Origin: a virus
DNA: 64,000 bases
IMG/VR virus record: IMGVR_UViG_3300021502_000037
Span: 1-64,000 of that record
Reading direction: 5' to 3' (one strand)
Positions 2 to 56,172 of this stretch are shown in pieces. Below the pieces are notes generated by a model that worked only from the letters and a program-made list of their open reading frames with translations, made no database searches and had not been told where the DNA came from. The position numbers were made by a program, and so were the translations under genes. Position 1 is the first letter of the stretch. The number at the start of each line of letters is the position of its first letter.

Positions 2-634
2 TATGAACTTTTAACTAAAAAATATATAAATGCGTATCAAAAATTAGAATATCTTTGTTCGAATGGCCATAAACATTCAATAACGTGGAATGATTGGCAA
101 CAAGGAACAAGATGCCCAACATGTTTTATTAATTCAATGAAAAATGGAATAGAATCTGTTAGAAAATCTTTTGAAAAGTACAATTATAAACTTTTAACTA
201 AAATGTATATTGATAGTCATCAAAAATTGGAATATATTTGTCCGAAAGGTCATAAACATTCCATGTCTTGGAACAATTGGCAACAAGAAAAAAGATGCCC
301 AACGTGTGCTAATATAAGTAATTATGGTAGCGGTAATCCAAACTGGAAAGGTGGCATCTCAAAAGAACCTTATTGTCAAGATTGGACAAACGATCTTAAA
401 GAACTTGTTAAGGAACGTGACGGACATAAATGTATGAACCCCGATTGTCGGTGCAAAGATAAAACGTTAGCGGTTCATCATATTAATTATAATAAAAAAT
501 TTTGTGGGGCTGAAAATCTTATTACGATTTGTAGATCTTGTAATTCTAGAGCAAATACAGATCGAGAATGGCACGGAGCTTGGTACAAAGCAATAATATA
601 CAGGAGAGGGTATAAATATGGAACTAGAATATGA
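2..634 (+). CDS. HNH homing endonuclease with zinc-finger repeats (5' end outside window)
   Basis: The reading frame is open from the first complete codon of the window, so the protein starts upstream. Two copies of a roughly 50-residue zinc-binding repeat are visible (pattern GY.LLTK.YI....KLEYICP.GHKH...W..W.....CPTC). They are followed by GNPNWKGGISKEPYCQDW and an HNH nuclease core with CMNPDC, VHHINYN and CRSCN. In known families the repeats bind DNA and the HNH core cuts it, so this is best read as a free-standing homing endonuclease. Close relatives lie at 5308, 45852 and 51324. Its 3' end overlaps the next virion gene by 17 bases, so it sits between structural genes as a guest. Family assignment is firm; its target is unknown. 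Confidence 0.9.
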   Translation, partial: YELLTKKYINAYQKLEYLCSNGHKHSITWNDWQQGTRCPTCFINSMKNGIESVRKSFEKYNYKLLTKMYIDSHQKLEYICPKGHKHSMSWNNWQQEKRCPTCANISNYGSGNPNWKGGISKEPYCQDWTNDLKELVKERDGHKCMNPDCRCKDKTLAVHHINYNKKFCGAENLITICRSCNSRANTDREWHGAWYKAIIYRRGYKYGTRI

Positions 635-3904: not shown

Positions 3905-5311
3905 ATGGCAGAATATAAAAATAATATACACGTTAATTTTGATGTAAATGATAGTATAGATGCTATTACATATTTACCATCTGTTTTTAGAATACAAAGT
4001 TCTGAAAGTGGTATATTTAATATAAACAATGATTTATATATTAGTTTAGTTGATGCTATTGATACCTATGATATTCAGGTTGAAGCAACTCTAAGTGGTG
4101 TATTAAAAAGTTCAAATTTTAACCATATAGTAGATATTTCTATGGATGATCTATTTATGGATACACCAGTGCCTATAGAAGTAAATTTTTGTACTTCTAT
4201 CACTACTAATAAAGTTATTTCATATGTATCTACATTTTTAATCTATAGAGACATATTTGGTACAGAAGATATAGATGTTTCTTCATATATAGGTACTAGT
4301 TATGATGCTTCTTTTACCGATATACAAAATATATTTCATATTTATATAGACGCAGTAGATGTTAAAACTGATGTACCTGTAGATTTATATATATCTAATA
4401 ATAAATATTATAATTACCCTATGGATCAGTACTCTACGATATTGGATTTAGTTGGTATAGGTATGGATTTTGAACAGGGGCCTGGTAAAGTAGCTAATAC
4501 ACAGTTGGATGCTTTTTCTTCAGGGTTAATTTTGAATGGAGAGGTTTTATACGATTCTTATTGTACTGAGAGTGGGGTTGTTGGTGGGTGTAGATCGGAT
4601 ATTACTACTATATCTGGTGGACAAACTTATATTCAAATGGACGGATTTTCGTCTTTAGTTAATATTAGTGGGTCGGTTAATTGTGACATACGTACATGGA
4701 GTTTAGAATTTGGTGATTTTTTTGCTGATCATTGGAGTGTTACTACTGCGTCAGGGTCAGCATGGATAGATATAATAGATACATTTTGTAGTATTGATAC
4801 AGGTAACTGTTATTTTTCTGTTGATGGGGAAAGGGTTGAATCTACATTTGTTACTATAGATGGTGGATACAGGATGTGCTATGACCCAATAGATAATTTT
4901 AGTACTCTATTAGAATTTCAAATGGATGTACATGCACAGAATTTTTATGGTGATATATTAGAGAATTCTTATAAATTTTTATATGGTGCCGATATTAGAT
5001 TGCATGAAGTAGTTACTTTTGTTAATAAAAAATATATTCCAATATGGGCAAAAGTAAACAATGTAATGGATTGTCCTGAATTTTCTACAGTTGCTTATAA
5101 ATTTGAAACAAAAGACTACTATGGTAAAGATTTAGGGGCGTATATAAATCCAGTAATAGGAGTTGATTTACCTGTGATTTTATATCCACAAAATACATTC
5201 TTTTTTTATGGTCGAACTTACCGTATAGGAATTTCTGGGTTAAAAGATTTTTCTGGGAATGTAAAGTCTGATTACATATATACCTTTACTATAGAGAACC
5301 CTTTAGAATGA
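3905..5311 (+). CDS. Hypothetical beta-rich tail/baseplate protein
   Basis: The protein has 468 residues with GTAGGGGTGG as the likely ribosome site. It is rich in short beta strands, Ser, Thr, Asp and Tyr. The last 60 residues (..GRTYRIGISGLKDFSGN..) resemble an immunoglobulin-like 'GLKDxSGN' module common in surface and tail proteins. The neighbours on both sides are virion-type proteins. The stop codon overlaps the start of a homing endonuclease gene (ATGA), so that gene was placed precisely at the 3' edge without damaging this one. No enzymatic motif is seen. Confidence 0.7.
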   Translation: MAEYKNNIHVNFDVNDSIDAITYLPSVFRIQSSESGIFNINNDLYISLVDAIDTYDIQVEATLSGVLKSSNFNHIVDISMDDLFMDTPVPIEVNFCTSITTNKVISYVSTFLIYRDIFGTEDIDVSSYIGTSYDASFTDIQNIFHIYIDAVDVKTDVPVDLYISNNKYYNYPMDQYSTILDLVGIGMDFEQGPGKVANTQLDAFSSGLILNGEVLYDSYCTESGVVGGCRSDITTISGGQTYIQMDGFSSLVNISGSVNCDIRTWSLEFGDFFADHWSVTTASGSAWIDIIDTFCSIDTGNCYFSVDGERVESTFVTIDGGYRMCYDPIDNFSTLLEFQMDVHAQNFYGDILENSYKFLYGADIRLHEVVTFVNKKYIPIWAKVNNVMDCPEFSTVAYKFETKDYYGKDLGAYINPVIGVDLPVILYPQNTFFFYGRTYRIGISGLKDFSGNVKSDYIYTFTIENPLE

Positions 5312-46727: not shown

Positions 46728-49184
46728 ATGAAAAAAATTAAAAGAAGTAAAAAACAAAACAAAATTAAAGTTGTAGCGTATTGTGATAGCCCCTCAGTTG
46801 CAACAGGGTTTGGAACAGTATCTAGAAATATTTTATCTGGTCTTTACGATACAGGTAGGTATGATATTGATGTGCTTGGTATTAATTATTGGGGAGATCC
46901 TCATGAATTTCCGTTTAGAATTTTCCCAACAGGAGTTAATTCACAACGTGACCCCTATGGGAGAGAAAAAATTTGTGGAATGATACCACAAATGCAGTAT
47001 GATATTTTATTTTTCCTACAGGATACATTTATTCTCTCATTTTTGCCAGAATTAATTAAAAAACTCGAATATGAAAAAAAGAATGATTTTAGATCTATTT
47101 GTTATTTCCCCGTAGACGGTCGACCAAAAAATCAATGGATCCATAATATAAATGCTGTCCATTATCCTGTAGCATATACGCAGTTTGGGCATGATCAAGC
47201 TAAAGAAGTTTGTCCTGAATATAAAGGATCTGATATTATAGTTCATGGTGTAAATACAAAAGAATATTTTGTTTTACCAGAAAAAGATAGTCTTGCTTTT
47301 AGGTCTCAATATTTTGGTAGGCACTCAGAAAAATTTATTATAACCAATTTAAATAGAAATCAACAAAGAAAAGATATACCTAGAACAATTCAAGCTTTTG
47401 CTGAATTTAGAAAAGAAGTTAAAGATAGTATTTTATATTTACACATGGCAAGAAACGATCAAGGATGGGATTTAGTTGAAGTATGTAAAGCATATGGATT
47501 AGATATTAGTAATGATGTAATTTTTCCTGAGAATTTCGGTCCAAATCAAGGTTATCCGAGAGAGGTTGTGAACATGATTTATAATGCAAGTGATTGTGTT
47601 GTCAGCACTACCTTGGGCGAGGGTTTTGGATTTTGTGTACATCCTAAAACCAATGTGTATACAGAAGAAGGTGTAAAATATATTGAAAATTTAACAATTA
47701 CTGATAATGTTTTGTCCTCTGATGGTAGTTATAATAGTGTTGAGGCTATTATGTCTAAAAATCATGATGGAAATTTGTATGAAATAACTACTTGGATGTC
47801 AAATATACCAATAAAAGCATCTCCAGAACATGGTTTCTTGGTTAAGGGATCTAAAACAGAGTATAATTGGAAGAAGGCTTCCGAGTTAAATATAAAGGAC
47901 ATACTAGTTTTTCCTAAAGGCAGTGTTTGTAGTTCTAATGTTATAGATATACTTGAGTTAATAAAACCAAATTTGTCTGTTGCTCAGTTGAATAATCTTA
48001 TAGAGACTAAAAATCATTTTAAAATCCAGTCAAATTTTACAAAAGAAAGTAAATTTATACCGAAAAAGTTAAAAATAACTGAAGATTTAATGTATTTATT
48101 TGGGTTATATTTGGCTGAAGGACATGTTGGTGCTTCTAAAATGGATAGTATAGGATTTAGTTTTCATAAAAAAGAGGTAAATTTACTTACATTTGTGGAA
48201 AATTTCATGGCAGATACTTTTGGGTTATCTTGTACATATTTAGATCATACAAGTAGAGGGAGTGATTATAAAGGACAAACCATAGTATTTTACTCTAGTG
48301 TTTTAGCTCAACTATTTAAAACTTTATTTGGTTTGGGAGCTAGGAATAAATATATACATAACATATTATTAACACAGCCAAATATAATGTTACAGAAATT
48401 ATTATATGGTGAATTTTTAGGTGATGGTAGTTATGGTGAGTCTACTTATGAATTTTCTATATCGACTACTTCTAAACATATAGCTTATGCGTTAAGATTA
48501 ATAATGGCAAAAATGGGTATTATTTCTTCAGTGAGAACAAGTAGGGTTGAATATAAAGTAAATGTTAGTGGTTCATCTAAAAGAAAGCTTCTTGATTTAT
48601 TTAATATTTATTATGATACAAATAGACCTTGGGAAAAAGGTGTTGATAGGGCTACTCAGAATGATGATTATTTATTATTACCTATTAAAGATATAACCAT
48701 AACTAAGTATGCTGGGAAATTAGTAGATATACAGGTTGCAAATACTAATAATTTTGTGGCAGAAAATGTGGTGGTACATAATTCGTGGATCGAAGCAATG
48801 GCAACAAAAACTCCAGTAGTTATACCAGACAATACTGCAATGACAGAATTTGTTAATGATACTAATGGTTATTTAGTTAAAAGCGGAACAAATTCAAGTT
48901 TATTCACAGTAATTCCCAATGATAATGAAATTATACGACCGCTGGTAGATGTAGAAGATTTGGTAGATAAACTAAAACAAATTTATTATGATAGAGATGA
49001 AGCAAAATGCCGTGCTGAAACAGCTTATAAATGGGTAACGGAAGAGATGGATTGGAAAAAAAATATTGTTCCACAATGGATAAAAGTATTTGATAAAGTT
49101 TATGCTGATTTGAAAAGCGGTAAACCAAGTAATCTTTTAGTTGATGGTAAGGCTGATAATATAATTAATGCGGAATCGTTTTAA
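46728..49184 (+). CDS. GT4-like glycosyltransferase containing an intein
   Basis: The precursor has 818 residues with an intein at 303-685. The joined host protein has about 435 residues: an N-terminal GT-B domain with ATGFGTVSRNILSGL, and a C-terminal GT4 domain with the E-x7-E-like motif GEGFGF^SWIEAMATKTPVV split exactly by the intein. It would transfer a sugar from a nucleotide donor. It has a strong ribosome site (AAGGAGAAGG). Because the intein lies in the donor-binding motif, activity depends on splicing. It is one of two intein-bearing glycosyltransferases here. The acceptor is unknown: phage DNA, virion protein or host surface glycan. Confidence 0.88.
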   Translation: MKKIKRSKKQNKIKVVAYCDSPSVATGFGTVSRNILSGLYDTGRYDIDVLGINYWGDPHEFPFRIFPTGVNSQRDPYGREKICGMIPQMQYDILFFLQDTFILSFLPELIKKLEYEKKNDFRSICYFPVDGRPKNQWIHNINAVHYPVAYTQFGHDQAKEVCPEYKGSDIIVHGVNTKEYFVLPEKDSLAFRSQYFGRHSEKFIITNLNRNQQRKDIPRTIQAFAEFRKEVKDSILYLHMARNDQGWDLVEVCKAYGLDISNDVIFPENFGPNQGYPREVVNMIYNASDCVVSTTLGEGFGFCVHPKTNVYTEEGVKYIENLTITDNVLSSDGSYNSVEAIMSKNHDGNLYEITTWMSNIPIKASPEHGFLVKGSKTEYNWKKASELNIKDILVFPKGSVCSSNVIDILELIKPNLSVAQLNNLIETKNHFKIQSNFTKESKFIPKKLKITEDLMYLFGLYLAEGHVGASKMDSIGFSFHKKEVNLLTFVENFMADTFGLSCTYLDHTSRGSDYKGQTIVFYSSVLAQLFKTLFGLGARNKYIHNILLTQPNIMLQKLLYGEFLGDGSYGESTYEFSISTTSKHIAYALRLIMAKMGIISSVRTSRVEYKVNVSGSSKRKLLDLFNIYYDTNRPWEKGVDRATQNDDYLLLPIKDITITKYAGKLVDIQVANTNNFVAENVVVHNSWIEAMATKTPVVIPDNTAMTEFVNDTNGYLVKSGTNSSLFTVIPNDNEIIRPLVDVEDLVDKLKQIYYDRDEAKCRAETAYKWVTEEMDWKKNIVPQWIKVFDKVYADLKSGKPSNLLVDGKADNIINAESF
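47634..48782 (+). mobile_element. LAGLIDADG intein in the glycosyltransferase
   Basis: The element has 383 residues. It begins with Cys (CVHPKTNVYTEEG) and ends with HN before Ser (VVVHN^S), the standard splicing residues. The B-block-like PEHGFLV and the two LAGLIDADG helices (YLFGLYLAEGHVG, LLYGEFLGDGSYG) are present, so it likely encodes both splicing and homing activity. The insertion site is the conserved GEGFGF^S donor-binding motif. Confidence 0.93.
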
Positions 49185-49453: not shown

Positions 49454-51025
49454 ATGGATGTAAAAATATTAGAAGAAGCAGGTTATAAACACGCATTATA
49501 TGGTATATCTTTGAGTTATAATAAAGATATAGAAAATATGGAGAAAGTTTCTAAATCTTTGTGTAAATTAGATGGTGGCCATAATAAATTTTTAGAAAGT
49601 ATTGTGGTATGGTTAGAAATAAATGCTGCTAGATATTGGTGGCAAGAATTTGATACATATAGAGTTGGTATCACCAAACAATCTGAGTGTTTTGATGATA
49701 AAACTGAAATCTTAACTTTAGATGGTTGGAAATATTTTAAAAATTTAAAAAATGAAGATTTATTTTGTACGATGAATATAAAAAATAGAAATATAGAATA
49801 TCAGAAAGCAACTAATTATATAGAGAATGATTTTAATGGGGAGGTACTTTCTATTAATGGTAAATCAATAGATTTAATTGTAACTAAAAATCATAATATG
49901 GTAATAAAATGTAGACGAAGTGAAAATTTGAGAATTATACCCGCTGATAAATTTACACATTCACATGGTATTCCAAAGAAAGCAATATGGAAGGGTAAAG
50001 AGGTGTCAGAGTTTATACTACCTATGGTACAGAAAGAAACGAAATACTCTACATTTTACCCAGAAAAAAAAATTAATATGGATTTATGGTTAAAATTTTT
50101 TGGTTTTTGGTTGGCAGAAGGATGTGTTTTTTGTAATCGTAATAAAAAAAATTACATATCATCCGCTTGTCAAGTTGAGGATAGTAAATATATACCTGAA
50201 ATAGATGCAATTTTTGATGAATTACCCTTTAAGGTTTATAGATATGTTGAGAAGAGAAAAGATAAGAAATCAATAATTGTATGGAAAATTTCTAATAAAC
50301 AGTTATATTTTTATTTATTAGAATATAAAGGAGCATTGAATAAATATATAAATAAAGATTTACTTACTTTATCTAAAAGACAATTAAACATTCTTGAAAA
50401 ATGGTTAATGGTTGGAGATGGTTGTGTTACTTTTAAGCACTATATTTACATTTCAATTAGTAAAAAATTAATTGATACTGTTCAAGAACTATGGTTAAAA
50501 TTAGGGTATTCCTCTTCTATTAGAATTCATCGTGAAGCTCAAAATAATTGTAAACGTGTTTATTCAATTGCAAGACATAGAACGTCTTATGCATATGCTT
50601 TGAAAAATAATATAAAAAAAGTAAATTATAAAGGTAAAATTTATTGTGTTGAGGTTCCTAATCATATTATTTTAGCTCGTAGAAATGGAAAGATAGTATG
50701 GACTGGTAATTCAACAATACATACACTTTTAAAAAGTAGATTAACTCAAAATAATTTTGAATCTGATATACCAGAAAAATTTTTAAATTATTTAAATACA
50801 ATTATTACTAATTATCATAATAGTAAGAATAAAAATAAAGCTGAATTTACAAAGGAAATAAAAAATATCCTTCCAGAAGGTTTTTTACAGCGAAGAATTG
50901 TGTGCACAAATTATAAAGTTTTAAAAAACATGATTAATCAAAGAAAGAATCATACTTTAGGTGGTTGGAAAATGTTTATAAATCATTTAAAAAATAATTT
51001 AGAACATTCAGATTTAATATTTTAA
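49454..51025 (+). CDS. ThyX-like protein containing an intein
   Basis: The precursor has 523 residues with an intein at 79-419. The joined protein has about 182 residues: ARYWWQEFDTYRVGITKQSE^STIHTL and LPEGFLQRRIVCTNYKVLKNMINQRKNH. This layout matches a phage family related to flavin-dependent thymidylate synthase ThyX, with a degenerate RHRxxSxxxxSxRY motif (TYRVGITKQSES). If active, it would make dTMP for phage DNA. Missing canonical residues leave the activity uncertain. The intein splits the motif itself. The start has GGGGTAG as a possible ribosome site within an omega-RNA-like remnant. Confidence 0.7.
   Translation: MDVKILEEAGYKHALYGISLSYNKDIENMEKVSKSLCKLDGGHNKFLESIVVWLEINAARYWWQEFDTYRVGITKQSECFDDKTEILTLDGWKYFKNLKNEDLFCTMNIKNRNIEYQKATNYIENDFNGEVLSINGKSIDLIVTKNHNMVIKCRRSENLRIIPADKFTHSHGIPKKAIWKGKEVSEFILPMVQKETKYSTFYPEKKINMDLWLKFFGFWLAEGCVFCNRNKKNYISSACQVEDSKYIPEIDAIFDELPFKVYRYVEKRKDKKSIIVWKISNKQLYFYLLEYKGALNKYINKDLLTLSKRQLNILEKWLMVGDGCVTFKHYIYISISKKLIDTVQELWLKLGYSSSIRIHREAQNNCKRVYSIARHRTSYAYALKNNIKKVNYKGKIYCVEVPNHIILARRNGKIVWTGNSTIHTLLKSRLTQNNFESDIPEKFLNYLNTIITNYHNSKNKNKAEFTKEIKNILPEGFLQRRIVCTNYKVLKNMINQRKNHTLGGWKMFINHLKNNLEHSDLIF
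49688..50710 (+). mobile_element. LAGLIDADG intein in the ThyX-like protein
   Basis: The element has 341 residues. It begins with Cys (CFDDKTEILTLDGW) and ends TGN^S. TKNHNMVIK marks block B and VEVPNHIILARRNGKI the C-terminal splicing block. The homing helices FFGFWLAEGCVF and EKWLMVGDGCVTF are intact. The C-terminal penultimate residue is Gly rather than His, a variation seen in active inteins. Confidence 0.92.
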
Positions 51026-51214: not shown

Positions 51215-51232
51215 ATTAGATAAGGTTAATTA

Positions 51233-51307
51233 AGCAAAGGTAGTTCAATGTAGAATATTCGGTGACCAGCCGGAAGATGCAGGTGCAATTCCTGCCCTTT
51301 TGCTCCA
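51233..51307 (+). tRNA. tRNA-like RNA 1 with encoded CCA
   Basis: The RNA has 75 bases. The acceptor stem AGCAAAG pairs with CTTTTGCT, followed by CCA. The D-arm is short (GTTC-AATGTA-GAAT, no GG in the loop). The anticodon stem TTCGG/CCGGA has the loop TGACCAG. The T-arm is GCAGG-TGCAATT-CCTGC. Position 33 is G instead of the nearly invariant U, and one extra base lies between T-arm and acceptor, so the anticodon (ACC if read by position) is doubtful. It is either an unusual tRNA or a tRNA-shaped RNA with another role. Confidence 0.6.
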
Positions 51308-51323
51308 AATAAAATAAAATAAA

Positions 51324-52010
51324 ATGATTAAACATAAAGATTTAATGGGCAAAACATTCGGGAGATTAAAAGTTATTGGAAAGGAAGGCCCAGCAAAAAA
51401 TAGAATAATGCAATGGTTATGTGAATGTTCGTGTGGCAATATATTAATAGTAAGATCCAATCATCTTATACATGGGCATACAAGAAGTTGTGGATGTTTA
51501 CAGAAAGAAAAAGTTACGGATGTTTTTATTCCAGATCTTATTGGAAAAAAATTTGGTAGACTTACAGTGCTGAGTTTAAGTAAAAAAAGAAAAAATAGAG
51601 CTGCAGTATGGAGATGTAAATGTGATTGTGGGAATTATACAGAAGTAATAACATCATGTCTTATAATTGGACATACAAAATCGTGTGGCTGTCTTCAAAC
51701 AGAATCTTGTTCTGGTGATAATAATTTTAATTGGAGAGATGACACCTCAAAAGGAATTTATTGTCGAGACTGGACTAATGATTTAAAAGATTGTGTTAAA
51801 GAACGTGATGAATATAAATGTTTAAATCCTGATTGTTGGGGTAAAGATAAGACATTATCTGTTCATCATATTAATTATAATAAAAAATCTTGTGGTCTAG
51901 AAAATCTTATTACAGTTTGCAGATCTTGTAATACTAGAGCAAATACAGATAGAGAATGGCACGAGGCTTGGTATAAAGCAATTTTATATAGTAGATATGG
52001 TTATATTTAA
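51324..52010 (+). CDS. HNH homing endonuclease with GRLTV zinc modules
   Basis: The protein has 228 residues. Its DNA-binding part differs from the other HNH genes: two copies of DL[MI]GK.FGRL.V ... W.C.C.CGN ... L..GHT.SCGCL (about residues 7-65 and 75-132). The C-terminal HNH part is the same family as at 5308 and 45852 (CLNPDCWGK, VHHINYN, CRSCN). This shows that one nuclease module has been joined to different DNA-binding arms. The ORF starts 17 bases after tRNA-like gene 1 and lies between the two tRNA-like genes. No ribosome site is evident. Confidence 0.9.
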   Translation: MIKHKDLMGKTFGRLKVIGKEGPAKNRIMQWLCECSCGNILIVRSNHLIHGHTRSCGCLQKEKVTDVFIPDLIGKKFGRLTVLSLSKKRKNRAAVWRCKCDCGNYTEVITSCLIIGHTKSCGCLQTESCSGDNNFNWRDDTSKGIYCRDWTNDLKDCVKERDEYKCLNPDCWGKDKTLSVHHINYNKKSCGLENLITVCRSCNTRANTDREWHEAWYKAILYSRYGYI

Positions 52011-52039: not shown

Positions 52040-52055
52040 ATATGTAAGGTGAATG

Positions 52056-52130
52056 AGCAAAAGTAGTTTAATGTAAAATATCTGATGACCAATCAGAAGA
52101 TGTTGGTTCAATTCCTGTCCTTTTGCTCCA
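52056..52130 (+). tRNA. tRNA-like RNA 2 with encoded CCA
   Basis: The RNA has 75 bases, the same length as copy 1. AGCAAAAG pairs with CTTTTGCT (8 pairs), then CCA. The anticodon stem TCTGA/TCAGA differs from copy 1 by compensating changes while the loop stays TGACCA[AG]. The T-loop TTCAATT is canonical, but its stem (GTTGG/CCTGT) has a mismatch. As in copy 1, U33 is missing. Compensating changes indicate that the fold is kept by selection. Confidence 0.62.
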
Positions 52131-52161
52131 AATAATTAATTTTAAATGTTAAGGAAAAATT

Positions 52162-52215
52162 ATGAACAGCTTTAGAGCCGCAATCCCAGAAAGGTCTTCG
52201 GGGTTAGGCTCTTGA
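52162..52215 (+). CDS. Possible 17-residue leader peptide
   Basis: A short ORF (MNSFRAAIPERSSGLGS) starts 11 bases after AAGGA. Its stop overlaps the TTGACA of the next promoter. The first 24 bases closely resemble those of the short ORF at 59164 (MNSFRTTV...), which also precedes a glycosyltransferase gene. It may be a translated leader or simply a piece of a repeated noncoding element. Confidence 0.35.
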   Translation: MNSFRAAIPERSSGLGS

Positions 52216-52239
52216 CAAATGAAATTTAATACTTATTAT
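52212..52239 (+). promoter_or_regulatory. Promoter of the TnpB fragment and glycosyltransferase
   Basis: TTGACA 52212-52217 and TATTAT 52234-52239, 16-base spacer, 20 bases before ATG 52259 (AAAGGG ribosome site). Confidence 0.75.
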
Positions 52240-52258
52240 TAATTTAAAGGGAAAATTT

Positions 52259-52639
52259 ATGATAACAAGAGAATTAAAATTACAATTACAATTAAAAACT
52301 AAGCAGAAAAACTTATGCAATTTAATAGGTATTTCTCAATTAAGACAATTTATTTCCTACAAGAGTGACATACACGGTAGAAAATGTGTTTTAGTTGATT
52401 CAAAATATACCACCATGACTTGTTCAATTTGTGGAGTCAAAACTGGTCCTACAAGTTTAAACGGGCTTGCTGTAAGAAATTGGGAGTGTAGTGCTTGTGG
52501 AGCACAACATGACCGCGACATTAATGCGGCTAATGTAATTCTCAATTTTGGGCTGGGATACAGCCTCGATAACGCTGCAACCCACGCCTGTAAAGGGCCG
52601 GGGATTTGTAAACTGGAATCGTCGGGCGGTGCCCGATGA
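52259..52639 (+). CDS. Truncated TnpB (C-terminal zinc finger and RuvC-III)
   Basis: The protein has 126 residues; full TnpB has about 370-410. Residues 24-92 match the TnpB C-terminus: GISQLRQFISYKSDIHGRK, a four-Cys zinc finger (C55, C58, C77, C80; TGPTSLNGLAVRNWEC) and RuvC-III HDRDINAANVIL with Asp 87 kept. RuvC-I, RuvC-II and the RNA-binding domains are absent; the first 18 residues (MITRELKLQLQLKTKQK) resemble a TnpB N-terminus, so an internal deletion is likely. It cannot be an active nuclease alone. It has its own promoter and ribosome site, and its stop overlaps the glycosyltransferase ATG (ATGA), so it now acts at least as a coupled leader cistron. Its 3' part is GC-rich compared with the genome, a sign of transfer. 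Confidence 0.85.
   Translation: MITRELKLQLQLKTKQKNLCNLIGISQLRQFISYKSDIHGRKCVLVDSKYTTMTCSICGVKTGPTSLNGLAVRNWECSACGAQHDRDINAANVILNFGLGYSLDNAATHACKGPGICKLESSGGAR
52545..52636 (+). mobile_element. GC-rich TnpB 3' end with terminal hairpin at the glycosyltransferase start
   Basis: The last 90 bases of the TnpB fragment are clearly richer in G and C than the surroundings. They end in the hairpin TCGGGC-GGT-GCCCGA (52622-52636), whose last base is the A of the glycosyltransferase ATG. In active elements this position is the scaffold end of the omega RNA and the following bases are the guide. Folding would cover the start codon, so it may also tune translation. Confidence 0.5.
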
Positions 52640-54819
52640 GTATCAAAATAAAAGGTATAAAATATGTGGGGCCACTAACAGATGGTTCTGGTTATGGAAA
52701 AGCTTGTAGAGAAAATATAAAAGCACTATTATCTGTTGGAGTAAATTTAACATTATCTCCTATATCTTTTGAAACAATTAGACCAGATTTAGGTGGTGAT
52801 GGTGAAATATTAAAAAAATTAATAAATAAATCTATAGATTATAATATAGTTATTATTCATACAACACCTGAATTTTGGGAAAAATATAGAGAAGATGGTA
52901 AATTAAATTTGGGATACACTATATGGGAAACTACAAAATTACATCCGGCGTGGAAAGATTATATTAATAATAATGTTGAAAAAGTTTTGGTAGGTTGTGA
53001 ATGGAATGTAGATGTCTTTAAAGAAAGCGGAATAACATTACCAATAGAAGTTATTCCACATCCAATAAATATACCAGATGAAAATGTAAAAGCATTCAAT
53101 ATAAATGGTGTTTCTGATGATACTTTTACATTCTACAGTATTTTTCAATGGTGTTACGATGATAAAACTAGGGTATTAACTGAAGACGGATTTAAATATT
53201 TTAAAGATTTAACATATGATGATAAGTTGGCTACATTAAATTTAAATACGGAGGAATTAGAATATCATAAACCAGATAATCTTGTAAGTTTCGATAGAAA
53301 AGATAAAATGATATCTATACAAGGTAATTTATTTGACGTTTGTGTTAATCCAGAACATAAAATGGTTGTTAGAAATGCGGACAGTAGTGATTGGTTTTTA
53401 AAACCTTTAAAAGATATGTTAAGTAGTAATAAAAAAAATGAATTAATTGTTAGCGATAAATATAGAGCAAAGAAAAATTGTAAATGGTTTGGAGAAGAAT
53501 GTGAAAACTTTTATTTACCTAAATATAAGCATGGTAAAGATGAAAAATTAGATGAATTTACCATAATTTTAATGGACGACATGTTGGAATTTATAGGTTG
53601 GTATATTTCAGAAGGTTCCACCTATAAGGGTGAAAGTGGTTATGTTACTACAATTACACAATCTAAAAGTGCTGTATATATAAAAGAAATTACAGAATGT
53701 ATAAAACGTATGGGATTTACTCCTTTTAAAAGGGATAAGGATATTAGATTTAATTCTAAAGACATGTATTATTTGTTAAAAAATTTAGGTACATCTCAAT
53801 ATAAATTTATTTTTAATTGGGCAAAAAAATTAAGTTCAAGACAAATAATTATTCTATTAACATCATTATTTAAAGGCGATGGTAGTTTATATGAGAATGG
53901 GGATTGGGTAAAGTATACTACAACGTCCAAAAAATTAGCAGAAGATGTTCAGGAATGTTTGTTAAAAGTAGGAATGTCTGGAGCAATTTCTATATCAGAT
54001 CCAACAAAAAAGAAACCTGGAACAATAGATGGAAGAGAAATTAGAGGAAAATTACTACAATATACTGTATCTGTGAATAGAAAATTTAATGAGCCGAGTA
54101 TGTATTATGCAAATGTAAAAGAAATTAATTATGATGGTAAAATATATTGTGCGGAAATAAAAAATCATACTATGTTAGTTGAACGTAATGGTAAAATATT
54201 ATTTTCTGGGAATACAGAAAGGAAAAATCCTGTAGCAGCTATAAAAGCCTATTGGTATGCTTTTCAAAATGATGAGAATGTAGCATTAGTATTAAAAACA
54301 TATAGAAGTGACTATTCTGAACAAGAAAAAGAAGCAATTAGAAGGACACTTAATAGGTTAAAAGATATTATGCCTATGGATACTTATCCAAAAATATATT
54401 TAATTCCAGATTTATTGACAGATAATGAAATAAATGGTTTACATAAACGTGGGGATTGTTATTTAAGTACAGACCGTGGTGAAGGTTTTGGTTTAAGTGG
54501 TGCTGCTGCTGGTTCTTTTGGCAATCCAATAATGGTAACAGGTTTTGGCGGGGCTTTAGAATATGCTAAAGAAGATAATAGTTATTTAATTGATTATCAG
54601 TTAACACCGGTTTTCGGACAGCCATGGAGTCCGTGGTATAAGGGTACTCAACTATGGGCGGAAACAAGTGTATTACACACATCTCAGTTATTAAGACATG
54701 TTTATGAAAATCAAGATGAAGCAAAACAAAAAGGTTTAAAGTTACAAAAATTTATAAAAGATAATTTATCTTATGAAACTATAGGTAATAAAATAATTAA
54801 AGAAATTGAGATGATATAG
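52636..54819 (+). CDS. GT4-like glycosyltransferase containing an intein
   Basis: The precursor has 727 residues with an intein at 173-526. The joined protein has about 373 residues. The N-terminal part (YVGPLTDGSGYGKACRENI) and HTTPEFWEKYR, GYTIWETTKLHPAW, VPH-like IPHPINIP and the C-terminal STDRGEGFGLSGAAAG donor-binding motif mark a GT-B retaining glycosyltransferase common in phages. The intein lies at SIFQW^TERKNP, in the linker to the second domain. The start codon overlaps the stop of the TnpB fragment and lies in the foot of a hairpin. It probably works with the glycosyltransferases and sugar-modifying enzymes downstream. Confidence 0.88.
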   Translation: MSIKIKGIKYVGPLTDGSGYGKACRENIKALLSVGVNLTLSPISFETIRPDLGGDGEILKKLINKSIDYNIVIIHTTPEFWEKYREDGKLNLGYTIWETTKLHPAWKDYINNNVEKVLVGCEWNVDVFKESGITLPIEVIPHPINIPDENVKAFNINGVSDDTFTFYSIFQWCYDDKTRVLTEDGFKYFKDLTYDDKLATLNLNTEELEYHKPDNLVSFDRKDKMISIQGNLFDVCVNPEHKMVVRNADSSDWFLKPLKDMLSSNKKNELIVSDKYRAKKNCKWFGEECENFYLPKYKHGKDEKLDEFTIILMDDMLEFIGWYISEGSTYKGESGYVTTITQSKSAVYIKEITECIKRMGFTPFKRDKDIRFNSKDMYYLLKNLGTSQYKFIFNWAKKLSSRQIIILLTSLFKGDGSLYENGDWVKYTTTSKKLAEDVQECLLKVGMSGAISISDPTKKKPGTIDGREIRGKLLQYTVSVNRKFNEPSMYYANVKEINYDGKIYCAEIKNHTMLVERNGKILFSGNTERKNPVAAIKAYWYAFQNDENVALVLKTYRSDYSEQEKEAIRRTLNRLKDIMPMDTYPKIYLIPDLLTDNEINGLHKRGDCYLSTDRGEGFGLSGAAAGSFGNPIMVTGFGGALEYAKEDNSYLIDYQLTPVFGQPWSPWYKGTQLWAETSVLHTSQLLRHVYENQDEAKQKGLKLQKFIKDNLSYETIGNKIIKEIEMI
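53152..54213 (+). mobile_element. LAGLIDADG intein in the second glycosyltransferase
   Basis: The element has 354 residues. It begins with Cys (CYDDKTRVLTEDGF) and ends SGN^T. NPEHKMVV is block B and AEIKNHTMLVERNGKI the C-terminal block. The helices EFIGWYISEGSTY and LTSLFKGDGSLY are the homing motifs. Its start is similar to the ThyX-like intein (DDKT...LT.DG), suggesting shared descent, while the first intein of the region is more different. Confidence 0.92.
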
Positions 54820-54822
54820 CTT

Positions 54823-56172
54823 GTGTTTAAAAAATTAAATATTGAAGATATAAGAAAAGAATTTAAAGATAAAGGTAAAACTTTAATTACTGAAATTTAT
54901 ATTAATAGTAAGCAATCATTAGATTATATTTGTAAAAATGGACATAAACATCATATGAGAATTGACCATTTACGAAGTGGTGTTGATTGCCCTTATTGTA
55001 ATGGTATGGCCAAAAAATCAATAGAAAAAATAAAACCGTATTTTTCTATAGAAGGGTATGAATTGCTTTCAGATGCATACGAAAATGCTTTTGGAGAATT
55101 AATTTGTAAATGTAAATTAGGTCATGTATTTAAAACTACTTGGCATAGTTGGAGCTCTAGTAAAAACAGGTGTCCAATATGTAATAAAGGTGTTAGATTT
55201 GATTTTGATATAGTTAAAAAAGATATTGAAGATGGTGGTTATGAATTAATAACTACTGAATATATTAATTCAGCACAAATTTTACATACTAAATGTCCCA
55301 AAAATCATGATTACTTTGTTAATTTTGGAAATTGGAAGCATAAAAAATCTAGATGTCCGCGTTGTTCAGGTAATGGTGCTTCTTCTCCAGAATATATTAT
55401 AAGGGAATTTTTAGATATAAATAATATTGATTATTTAATTAATGATAAAAAAATTATTGCTCCATATGAATTAGATATAGTTATCCAAGATAAAAAGATT
55501 GCTATAGAATATTGTGGTTTATATTGGCATTCTGAAAGTAAAGGAAAATGTAATGATTATCATATACACAAATATAATTTATGTAAAGAAAAAGGTTATA
55601 GGCTAATAACAATTTTTGAAGATGAGTATATATTTAATTATGATGTAGTTAAATACAATCTTAATTCTATTTTGAAATTGAATAATATTAAAACAAAACA
55701 ATTAACTAATTATAATATTATAGAAGTATCAAATATAGAAGCGAAAGTGTTTTTTAATAAAAATTCATTTATAGGTTGTTATGCAGATACAGATATAAAG
55801 TTAGGTATATTTATAAACGGTAATTTGGTGGGTGTTGGTTTATTTTCTTATCAAAACTCTGATAATTATTTATTAATTGGGTTTTGTTCTAACATGGTAT
55901 ATAGAAAAAGAGATATTTTATTTAAAATTATAGAGTATTTTAAAATTAATTATAGGTGGAGAACTATTTCTGTAGAAGTTGATAAAAGATGGTATAGCGG
56001 TGACATATTTTACAGATTAGGATTTGATTTTATAAAAATTATTAAACCTATTAGTTGGAATTTTAAATCGAAGAAAAGAGTAACTAATAAAATAAAAGAT
56101 ATAAATTATGATAAGATTTGGGATTGTGGTAAAAATAAATATATGTTAAAAAATAGAATGGAGTTAACATGA
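54823..56172 (+). CDS. Homing endonuclease: zinc repeats, Vsr-like nuclease, associated C-terminal domain
   Basis: The protein has 449 residues from GTG 54823, three bases behind the previous stop and without a ribosome site. Three zinc repeats (to about residue 180) of the same type as in the HNH genes are followed by a PD-(D/E)XK/Vsr-like nuclease (SSPEYIIREFLDINNI ... YELDIVIQDKKIAIEYCGLYWHSE). The C-terminal domain of unknown function (IEVSNIEAKVFFNKNSFIGCY ... KLGIFINGNLVGVGLFS ... VDKRWYSGDIFYRLGF) comes last. The first nuclease half and the last domain are shared with the frameshifted gene at 38771. The stop overlaps the methyltransferase start (ATGA). Confidence 0.9.
   Translation: MFKKLNIEDIRKEFKDKGKTLITEIYINSKQSLDYICKNGHKHHMRIDHLRSGVDCPYCNGMAKKSIEKIKPYFSIEGYELLSDAYENAFGELICKCKLGHVFKTTWHSWSSSKNRCPICNKGVRFDFDIVKKDIEDGGYELITTEYINSAQILHTKCPKNHDYFVNFGNWKHKKSRCPRCSGNGASSPEYIIREFLDINNIDYLINDKKIIAPYELDIVIQDKKIAIEYCGLYWHSESKGKCNDYHIHKYNLCKEKGYRLITIFEDEYIFNYDVVKYNLNSILKLNNIKTKQLTNYNIIEVSNIEAKVFFNKNSFIGCYADTDIKLGIFINGNLVGVGLFSYQNSDNYLLIGFCSNMVYRKRDILFKIIEYFKINYRWRTISVEVDKRWYSGDIFYRLGFDFIKIIKPISWNFKSKKRVTNKIKDINYDKIWDCGKNKYMLKNRMELT

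Follow-up and report, generated by a model that had tools for sequence, protein, structure and literature searches.

Non-autonomous derivatives of IS200/IS605 transposons, known as MITE-like or PATE-like elements, are internally deleted and retain both ends. In IS608, each cleavage site is recognised by a guide tetranucleotide that pairs with it and lies at the foot of the respective end hairpin, the left site TTAC with the left guide AAAG and the right site TCAA with the right guide GAAT (PMC5934647). IStrons are chimeras of a group I intron and an IS605-type element, which render insertion into genes harmless (PMC4227781). TldRs are TnpB-derived, phage-borne proteins that have kept guide-RNA and DNA binding and possess a dead RuvC (PMC13418256).

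We analysed a window of 64,000 nucleotides of viral DNA (positions 1 to 64,000 of IMG/VR record IMGVR_UViG_3300021502_000037), in which a sequence-only reading had picked out a 126-residue TnpB remnant as an expressed gene, fused by translation to a glycosyltransferase and perhaps a new, smaller use of the TnpB fold. Judged by its ends, the natural unit at this locus is a 480-bp transposon and not a newly evolved gene; it is best described as a non-autonomous, internally deleted element of IS200/IS605 type (Table 1). We consider it probable, at roughly 0.6, that the frame of 126 codons has been retained as a translational leader cistron of the glycosyltransferase.

Table 1. Positions of the features discussed (window coordinates unless a locus is named)
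Feature	Position	Strand	Basis or remark
ATGAA, original start codon of the glycosyltransferase plus two bases	52162..52166	+	same WTGAA boundary at other left ends
Whole internally deleted IS200/IS605-type element	52167..52646	+	480 bp; boundaries from divergence directly beyond them in unrelated insertions
Left-end imperfect palindrome (hairpin)	52175..52211	+	folding; conserved in L003, L004, L034, L035, L037, L066
Left guide CAAT, foot of left hairpin	52181..52184	+	equals the guide predicted from TGAA by the IS608 rule
TTGACA-N16-TATTAT promoter-like site of the element's tnpB	52212..52239	+	11/12 consensus match
Shine-Dalgarno-like AAGG of the mini ORF	52247..52250	+	8 nt upstream of ATG
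Mini ORF	52259..52639	+	ATG start; 126 aa = 23 N-terminal + 103 C-terminal TnpB residues
GGCUG/CAGCC stem, probably belonging to the omega RNA scaffold	52551..52565	+	100% paired in 7 sequences
Right guide GAAT, foot of right hairpin	52616..52619	+	identical to the IS608 right guide
Right-end hairpin enclosing GGGCGG and ATG	52620..52638	+	RNA and DNA folding
ATGAGTATCAA, replacement start codon from the right end	52636..52646	+	conserved in classes A and B
Glycosyltransferase with LAGLIDADG intein, started from the element's ATG	52636..54819	+	ORF, domain matches, homologues
Flank, putative guide for any full TnpB acting in trans	52647..52666	+	inferred from reRNA layout (PMC8612924)
L036 right end	412-436	-	
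Endonuclease VII-like protein	L035:10306-10938	-	tnpA in L096

Alignment of the DNA with that of relatives carrying either of two TnpB classes (A and B, described below) gives a common left end, TGAACAGCYTTAGAGCCGCAATCCCCGAA...TTCGGGGTTAGGCTCTTGACA-N16-TATTAT, and a common right end, CTGGAATCGTCGGGCGGTGCCCGATGAGYATCAA. On the left side divergence sets in directly beyond TGAA, and on the right side directly beyond TCAA; conservation of the right end runs to GATGAGYATCAA, with unrelated DNA beyond, so that the TGA/ATG overlap contained in GATGAGYATCAA is itself transposon right end. TCAA within ATGAGTATCAA is the right cleavage site and ends the element, with divergence following directly in both classes. 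WTGAA (once ATGAT) precedes every left end, joined flanks rebuild open reading frames, and insertion occurs 3' of a fixed tetranucleotide with no target duplication; the last four bases of ATGAA are the TGAA target, or left cleavage tetranucleotide, and WTGAA is a probable TAM. Broad scans for left and right ends produced matches that were mostly due to chance, and these were discarded after inspection of their flanks.

Both ends carry subterminal hairpins whose foot guides pair with the cleavage sites (CAAT with TGAA, GAAT with TCAA), and CAAT is exactly the left guide that the IS608 pairing rule derives from a TGAA target. Among the genuine left ends for which the scan gave a TGAN target (13 are listed as matching), every left hairpin has CAAT at its foot, and in one compensated variant, L026, target and guide covary as TGAT and CAAA. 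In the window the left hairpin is partly decayed relative to its relatives; the right hairpin folds at -15.8 kcal/mol as RNA for 43 nt (z = -4.0; DNA z = -3.3), and the right end of L002 folds no better than shuffles. The promoter-like site has the same place and spacing in L004, L034, L035, L037 and the second copy in L039. The family thus shares with the IS608/IS605 group the GAAT guide, hairpin and TCAA right cleavage site, a left guide at the hairpin foot that pairs with the target tetranucleotide and, in class B relatives, divergent Y1 tnpA and tnpB genes (PMC5934647). It differs in that the target is TGAA where IS608 has TTAC, that the window copy and all class A copies lack a Y1 TnpA, and that a start codon, in phase and overlapping the stop of tnpB, is built into the right end. 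With no TnpA encoded in the window copy or in the 65-kb record, this copy cannot be more than a non-autonomous derivative; from MITE-like and PATE-like elements it differs by the open frame that still leads into the start codon of its right end.

The open reading frame, the promoter-like site, the ribosome site and the overlap of stop and ATG claimed for the remnant are all present. The TGA of the mini ORF overlaps by 4 nt the ATG of a 727-aa ORF at 52636, which makes the supposed fusion to the glycosyltransferase an overlap with its start. Residues 26-94 match the Pfam family Cas12f1-like_TNB (E=1e-20), the two CxxC pairs are kept, as is the HDRD of RuvC-III, and solved TnpB and Cas12f structures are relatives of this C-terminal zinc ribbon and RuvC-III. 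These two features of an active TnpB are therefore in place, as reported, except that they are not all that remains: the first ~23 residues are the N-terminus of the same TnpB family. The net loss relative to L002 is ~240 internal tnpB codons, a multiple of three and so in frame, and it removed RuvC-I, RuvC-II and the WED/REC parts, which are absent from the mini ORF. The predicted fold of the mini protein, made from a shallow alignment, is of low confidence (mean pLDDT 44.9). Although TnpB-derived and phage-borne like the TldRs, the mini ORF is not of their kind, having lost the binding lobes and kept the RuvC-III aspartate; the remark that known TnpB-derived repressors keep the RNA-binding parts and this one does not was correct, the regions retained by TldRs being those deleted here (PMC13418256). 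Promoter, start and overlap had also been taken as marks of a maintained gene. They are conserved parts of the two ends of the parent transposon, and hence are not independent signs that a new gene has been maintained; promoter-like sites as a class are, moreover, in no excess in the AT-rich region (24, against 19.3 +/- 4.5 in shuffles).

Four loci in IMG/VR (L002-L005) encode full-length TnpBs of ~365 aa that are 68-73% identical to the window copy and share with it the start, the LESSGG(A)R end with its stop, and the overlapping ATG. This class A TnpB lies between the shared ends in the window, L003, L004 and L005, and a class B TnpB, ~25% identical, occupies the same ends in L025, L034, L037, L113, L117 and L121. 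Inside the same ends a Y1 TnpA (PF01797), divergent from tnpB, is found in the class B relatives L091, L092 and L094, and we infer that class A elements, the window's included, would be mobilised by TnpA supplied in trans. In L035 and L096 the ends hold TnpA together with an endonuclease VII-like protein (PHROG E=2.6e-13) in place of TnpB, joined in frame so that the class B TnpB frame contributes its first ~19 residues before it and its last ~21 after it. The 32-kb viral contig G002, which contains L003, has three right-end matches, at 4196, 10197 and 17126, and in one of them the hairpin sequence is a variant (GGTGTATGATGAGTATCAA); this points to active spread inside a phage.

At the window insertion, the joined flanks AAGGAAAAATTATGAA and AATAAAAGG give MKIKGIKYVGPL, an empty site that reads MKIKGIKYVG and matches element-free homologues: L100, which starts MNIVGIKYV and is directly preceded by an HNH gene of the same kind, and L099, which starts MEIRGIKYVGP. 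The insertion point is directly after the ATGAA of the glycosyltransferase gene, and the element exchanged MK for MSIK at the N-terminus; phase was kept, the right-end ATGAGYATCAA exceeding ATGAA by six bases. The right-end ATG leads in frame into an ORF of 60 codons or more in 11 of the 21 distinct insertions, against 18.5% of other or random WTGAA sites in the same loci (p=5e-4). ATGAA gene starts account for four of the 14 insertions with a known left end (the window, L004, L025 and L121) where 3.8% of sites would be expected (p=0.0016), in a comparison which, like that of the leaders below, covers few loci and was designed after the pattern had been seen. The target of L121, as read from its flank, is itself a TGA/ATG gene junction. 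Since other insertions lie away from starts, within genes in L034 and L037 and beside a tRNA gene in L003, start codons would appear to be favoured or tolerated and not required.

We propose that the element was inserted by single-strand transposition directly after this ATGAA, which would have severed the glycosyltransferase from its own ribosome site and start, and that a new start in the same phase came from ATG-AGT-ATC-AA of the right end. Ribosomes ending the tnpB frame at TGA would then open the hairpin and restart on the glycosyltransferase by translational coupling; the locus has the stop/start overlap and the downstream start within secondary structure that characterise a coupling leader, and the hairpin with its ATG and GGGCGG is also the transposase hairpin. 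When the middle of tnpB was lost, only frame-keeping deletions would have left the downstream gene on. The ends, internal deletion, start-codon insertion, phase, hairpin and frame retention in reduced copies are read from the DNA, and to these we add transcription across the element and selection on the leader as presumed steps. IStrons likewise make insertion into a gene harmless, by self-splicing where translational hand-over, limited to gene starts, is proposed here.

The reduced copies among the relatives bear on whether the frame itself is important. A leader that is led by a Shine-Dalgarno sequence and runs in frame into the TGA/ATG junction is present in six of eight, against 17% of random upstream DNA (p about 5e-4, with the post hoc design already mentioned), and in copies in front of genes its length ranges from 14 to 151 codons. 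Nothing but the right end, 39 nt long, is left in L036, where it occupies the start region of a gene that by eye looks HAD-like. There the host's Shine-Dalgarno sequence and ATGAA read a 14-codon leader, MKKVVQLESSGGAR and a stop, followed by MSIKYRLGFDIDEVV, the start of the HAD-like gene, which makes this locus a naturally occurring test of coupling. The leader of L027, read from the host ATGAA, has 42 codons, those of L029 and L066/L030 have 34 and 48, and L155 is a 151-codon TnpB remnant with a GTG start; no leader is seen in L033 or L026, neither of which precedes a gene. Common to the reduced copies are the frame, its LESSGG(A/V/T)R ending and stop, and the overlap; the zinc finger is not, being absent from the leaders of L036, L027 and L066. 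Because an in-frame leader is all that the other reduced copies before genes retain, leader retention is the best supported of the three uses that the sequence-only reading had suggested for the remnant. This is tempered by the odds for any single deletion, one in three of which would keep the frame by chance.

Chance and youth are the main rival of the leader reading: the element would be a recent, decaying remnant whose open frame reflects no selection on leader or protein, which we regard as unlikely, though less so than the other alternatives. The partly decayed left hairpin fits such a remnant, as do the missing start in L033, the missing ORF in L026, the stop codon in a related copy (L039:10200-) and the one-in-three odds of a deletion in frame; against it, all five reduced copies counted before genes keep a Shine-Dalgarno-led frame (~5e-4 by chance) and the leaderless copies are those not in front of a gene. 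Comparison of the mini ORF with L002 gives dN/dS = 0.17, and on the window branch there are 12 silent and four replacement codon changes, with no excess of replacements. That ratio is compatible, too, with ongoing selection on the protein or with a very recent deletion, and it does not distinguish between selection before the deletion, on an overlapping guide RNA or on the protein. The same figures, with the intact cysteines and HDRD, are what could be said for a working mini-protein, in which the zinc ribbon and RuvC-III have been adopted as, for instance, an RNA-binding or DNA-binding regulator or an inhibitor of transposition. We think this very improbable: the conservation may predate the deletion or stem from overlapping RNA, the search turned up no independent family with this truncation, the predicted fold is of low confidence, and the in-frame remnant L155 has another breakpoint and LDRV for HDRD, so that its RuvC-III aspartate is lost. 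The notion of a new, smaller use of the fold is further weakened by the copy at L039:10200-10600, a second class A remnant in the phage of L002, independently deleted, with left end and promoter intact, an early in-frame TAG and the right end lost; a stop codon in a related remnant, which had been named in advance as evidence against a maintained gene, is here seen in one copy.

A role as donor of guide RNA is doubtful, and is compatible with the leader reading more than it is an exclusive alternative. The 3' third of the element would provide omega RNA plus right end to a full TnpB acting in trans; it is equally doubtful that this TnpB cuts empty sites (TAM TGAA, guide from 52647), the element being copied in during mixed infection. 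The retained 3' part does cover the region from which TnpB guide RNAs originate (PMC8612924), and the GGCUG/CAGCC stem is conserved with a compensatory G-C to C-G/U-G change at one pair across seven sequences. L036, L027 and L066, however, persist without most of the scaffold and the TnpB C-terminus. A partnership with a full TnpB elsewhere had been suggested. By way of the guide RNA, and not of the protein, it is conceivable: the related phage of L002 has both a full class A TnpB and a remnant, but neither TnpA nor a second TnpB is present in this phage's 65-kb record, which may be a fragment.

The surroundings of the element are dense in selfish elements, with three ORFs within 8 kb that are apparently interrupted by inteins (46728-49184, 49454-51025 and 52636-54819), two of them (49454 and 52636) with LAGLIDADG endonuclease matches, and a homing-type HNH endonuclease at 54823-56172. 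Another HNH gene (51324-52010) is flanked by two similar tRNA-like genes (51231-51305 and 52055-52129), each behind a TTGACA promoter-like site; Infernal scores both at 35 bits as tRNA, ARAGORN calls neither, and loop position 33 is apparently not U. The phage has no nucleotide similarity to named phages, where protein matches stay below 60%. A search for a bacterial source with the right-end pattern in 84,980 species gave three matches, judged to be chance because no TnpB or left end accompanies any of them, and group I intron/IStron or HEARO-type RNAs gave no Rfam match at E up to 5.

It is the wider pattern, hand-over right ends together with exchange of TnpB and endonuclease VII cargo, that is of most interest. 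We put at about even odds the proposition that the right ends of this phage IS605-type family double as a device for translational hand-over, with insertion into start codons tolerated, any cargo carried in frame, and reduced copies serving as leader cistrons. It is a similarly balanced matter whether class A TnpB, class B TnpB, endonuclease VII and a bare leader are all cargo of that device. The open-access literature yielded nothing relevant on TnpB with start-codon or translational-coupling insertion, and neither right-end hand-over nor TnpB/endonuclease VII cargo exchange was found there; also new here is one element with these ends carrying endonuclease VII instead of TnpB.

If true, hand-over would give TnpB transposons a second route, besides the self-splicing of IStrons, to occupy a gene without inactivating it, and would predict which deleted copies persist. 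The locus also carries a warning, in that transposon ends can endow a TnpB fragment with an open frame, a promoter and a stop/start overlap, which should then not be taken as evidence of a new domesticated gene. Finally, the exchange of TnpB for an endonuclease VII-type protein between the same ends is of direct relevance to the idea of TnpB as a homing nuclease for its transposon.
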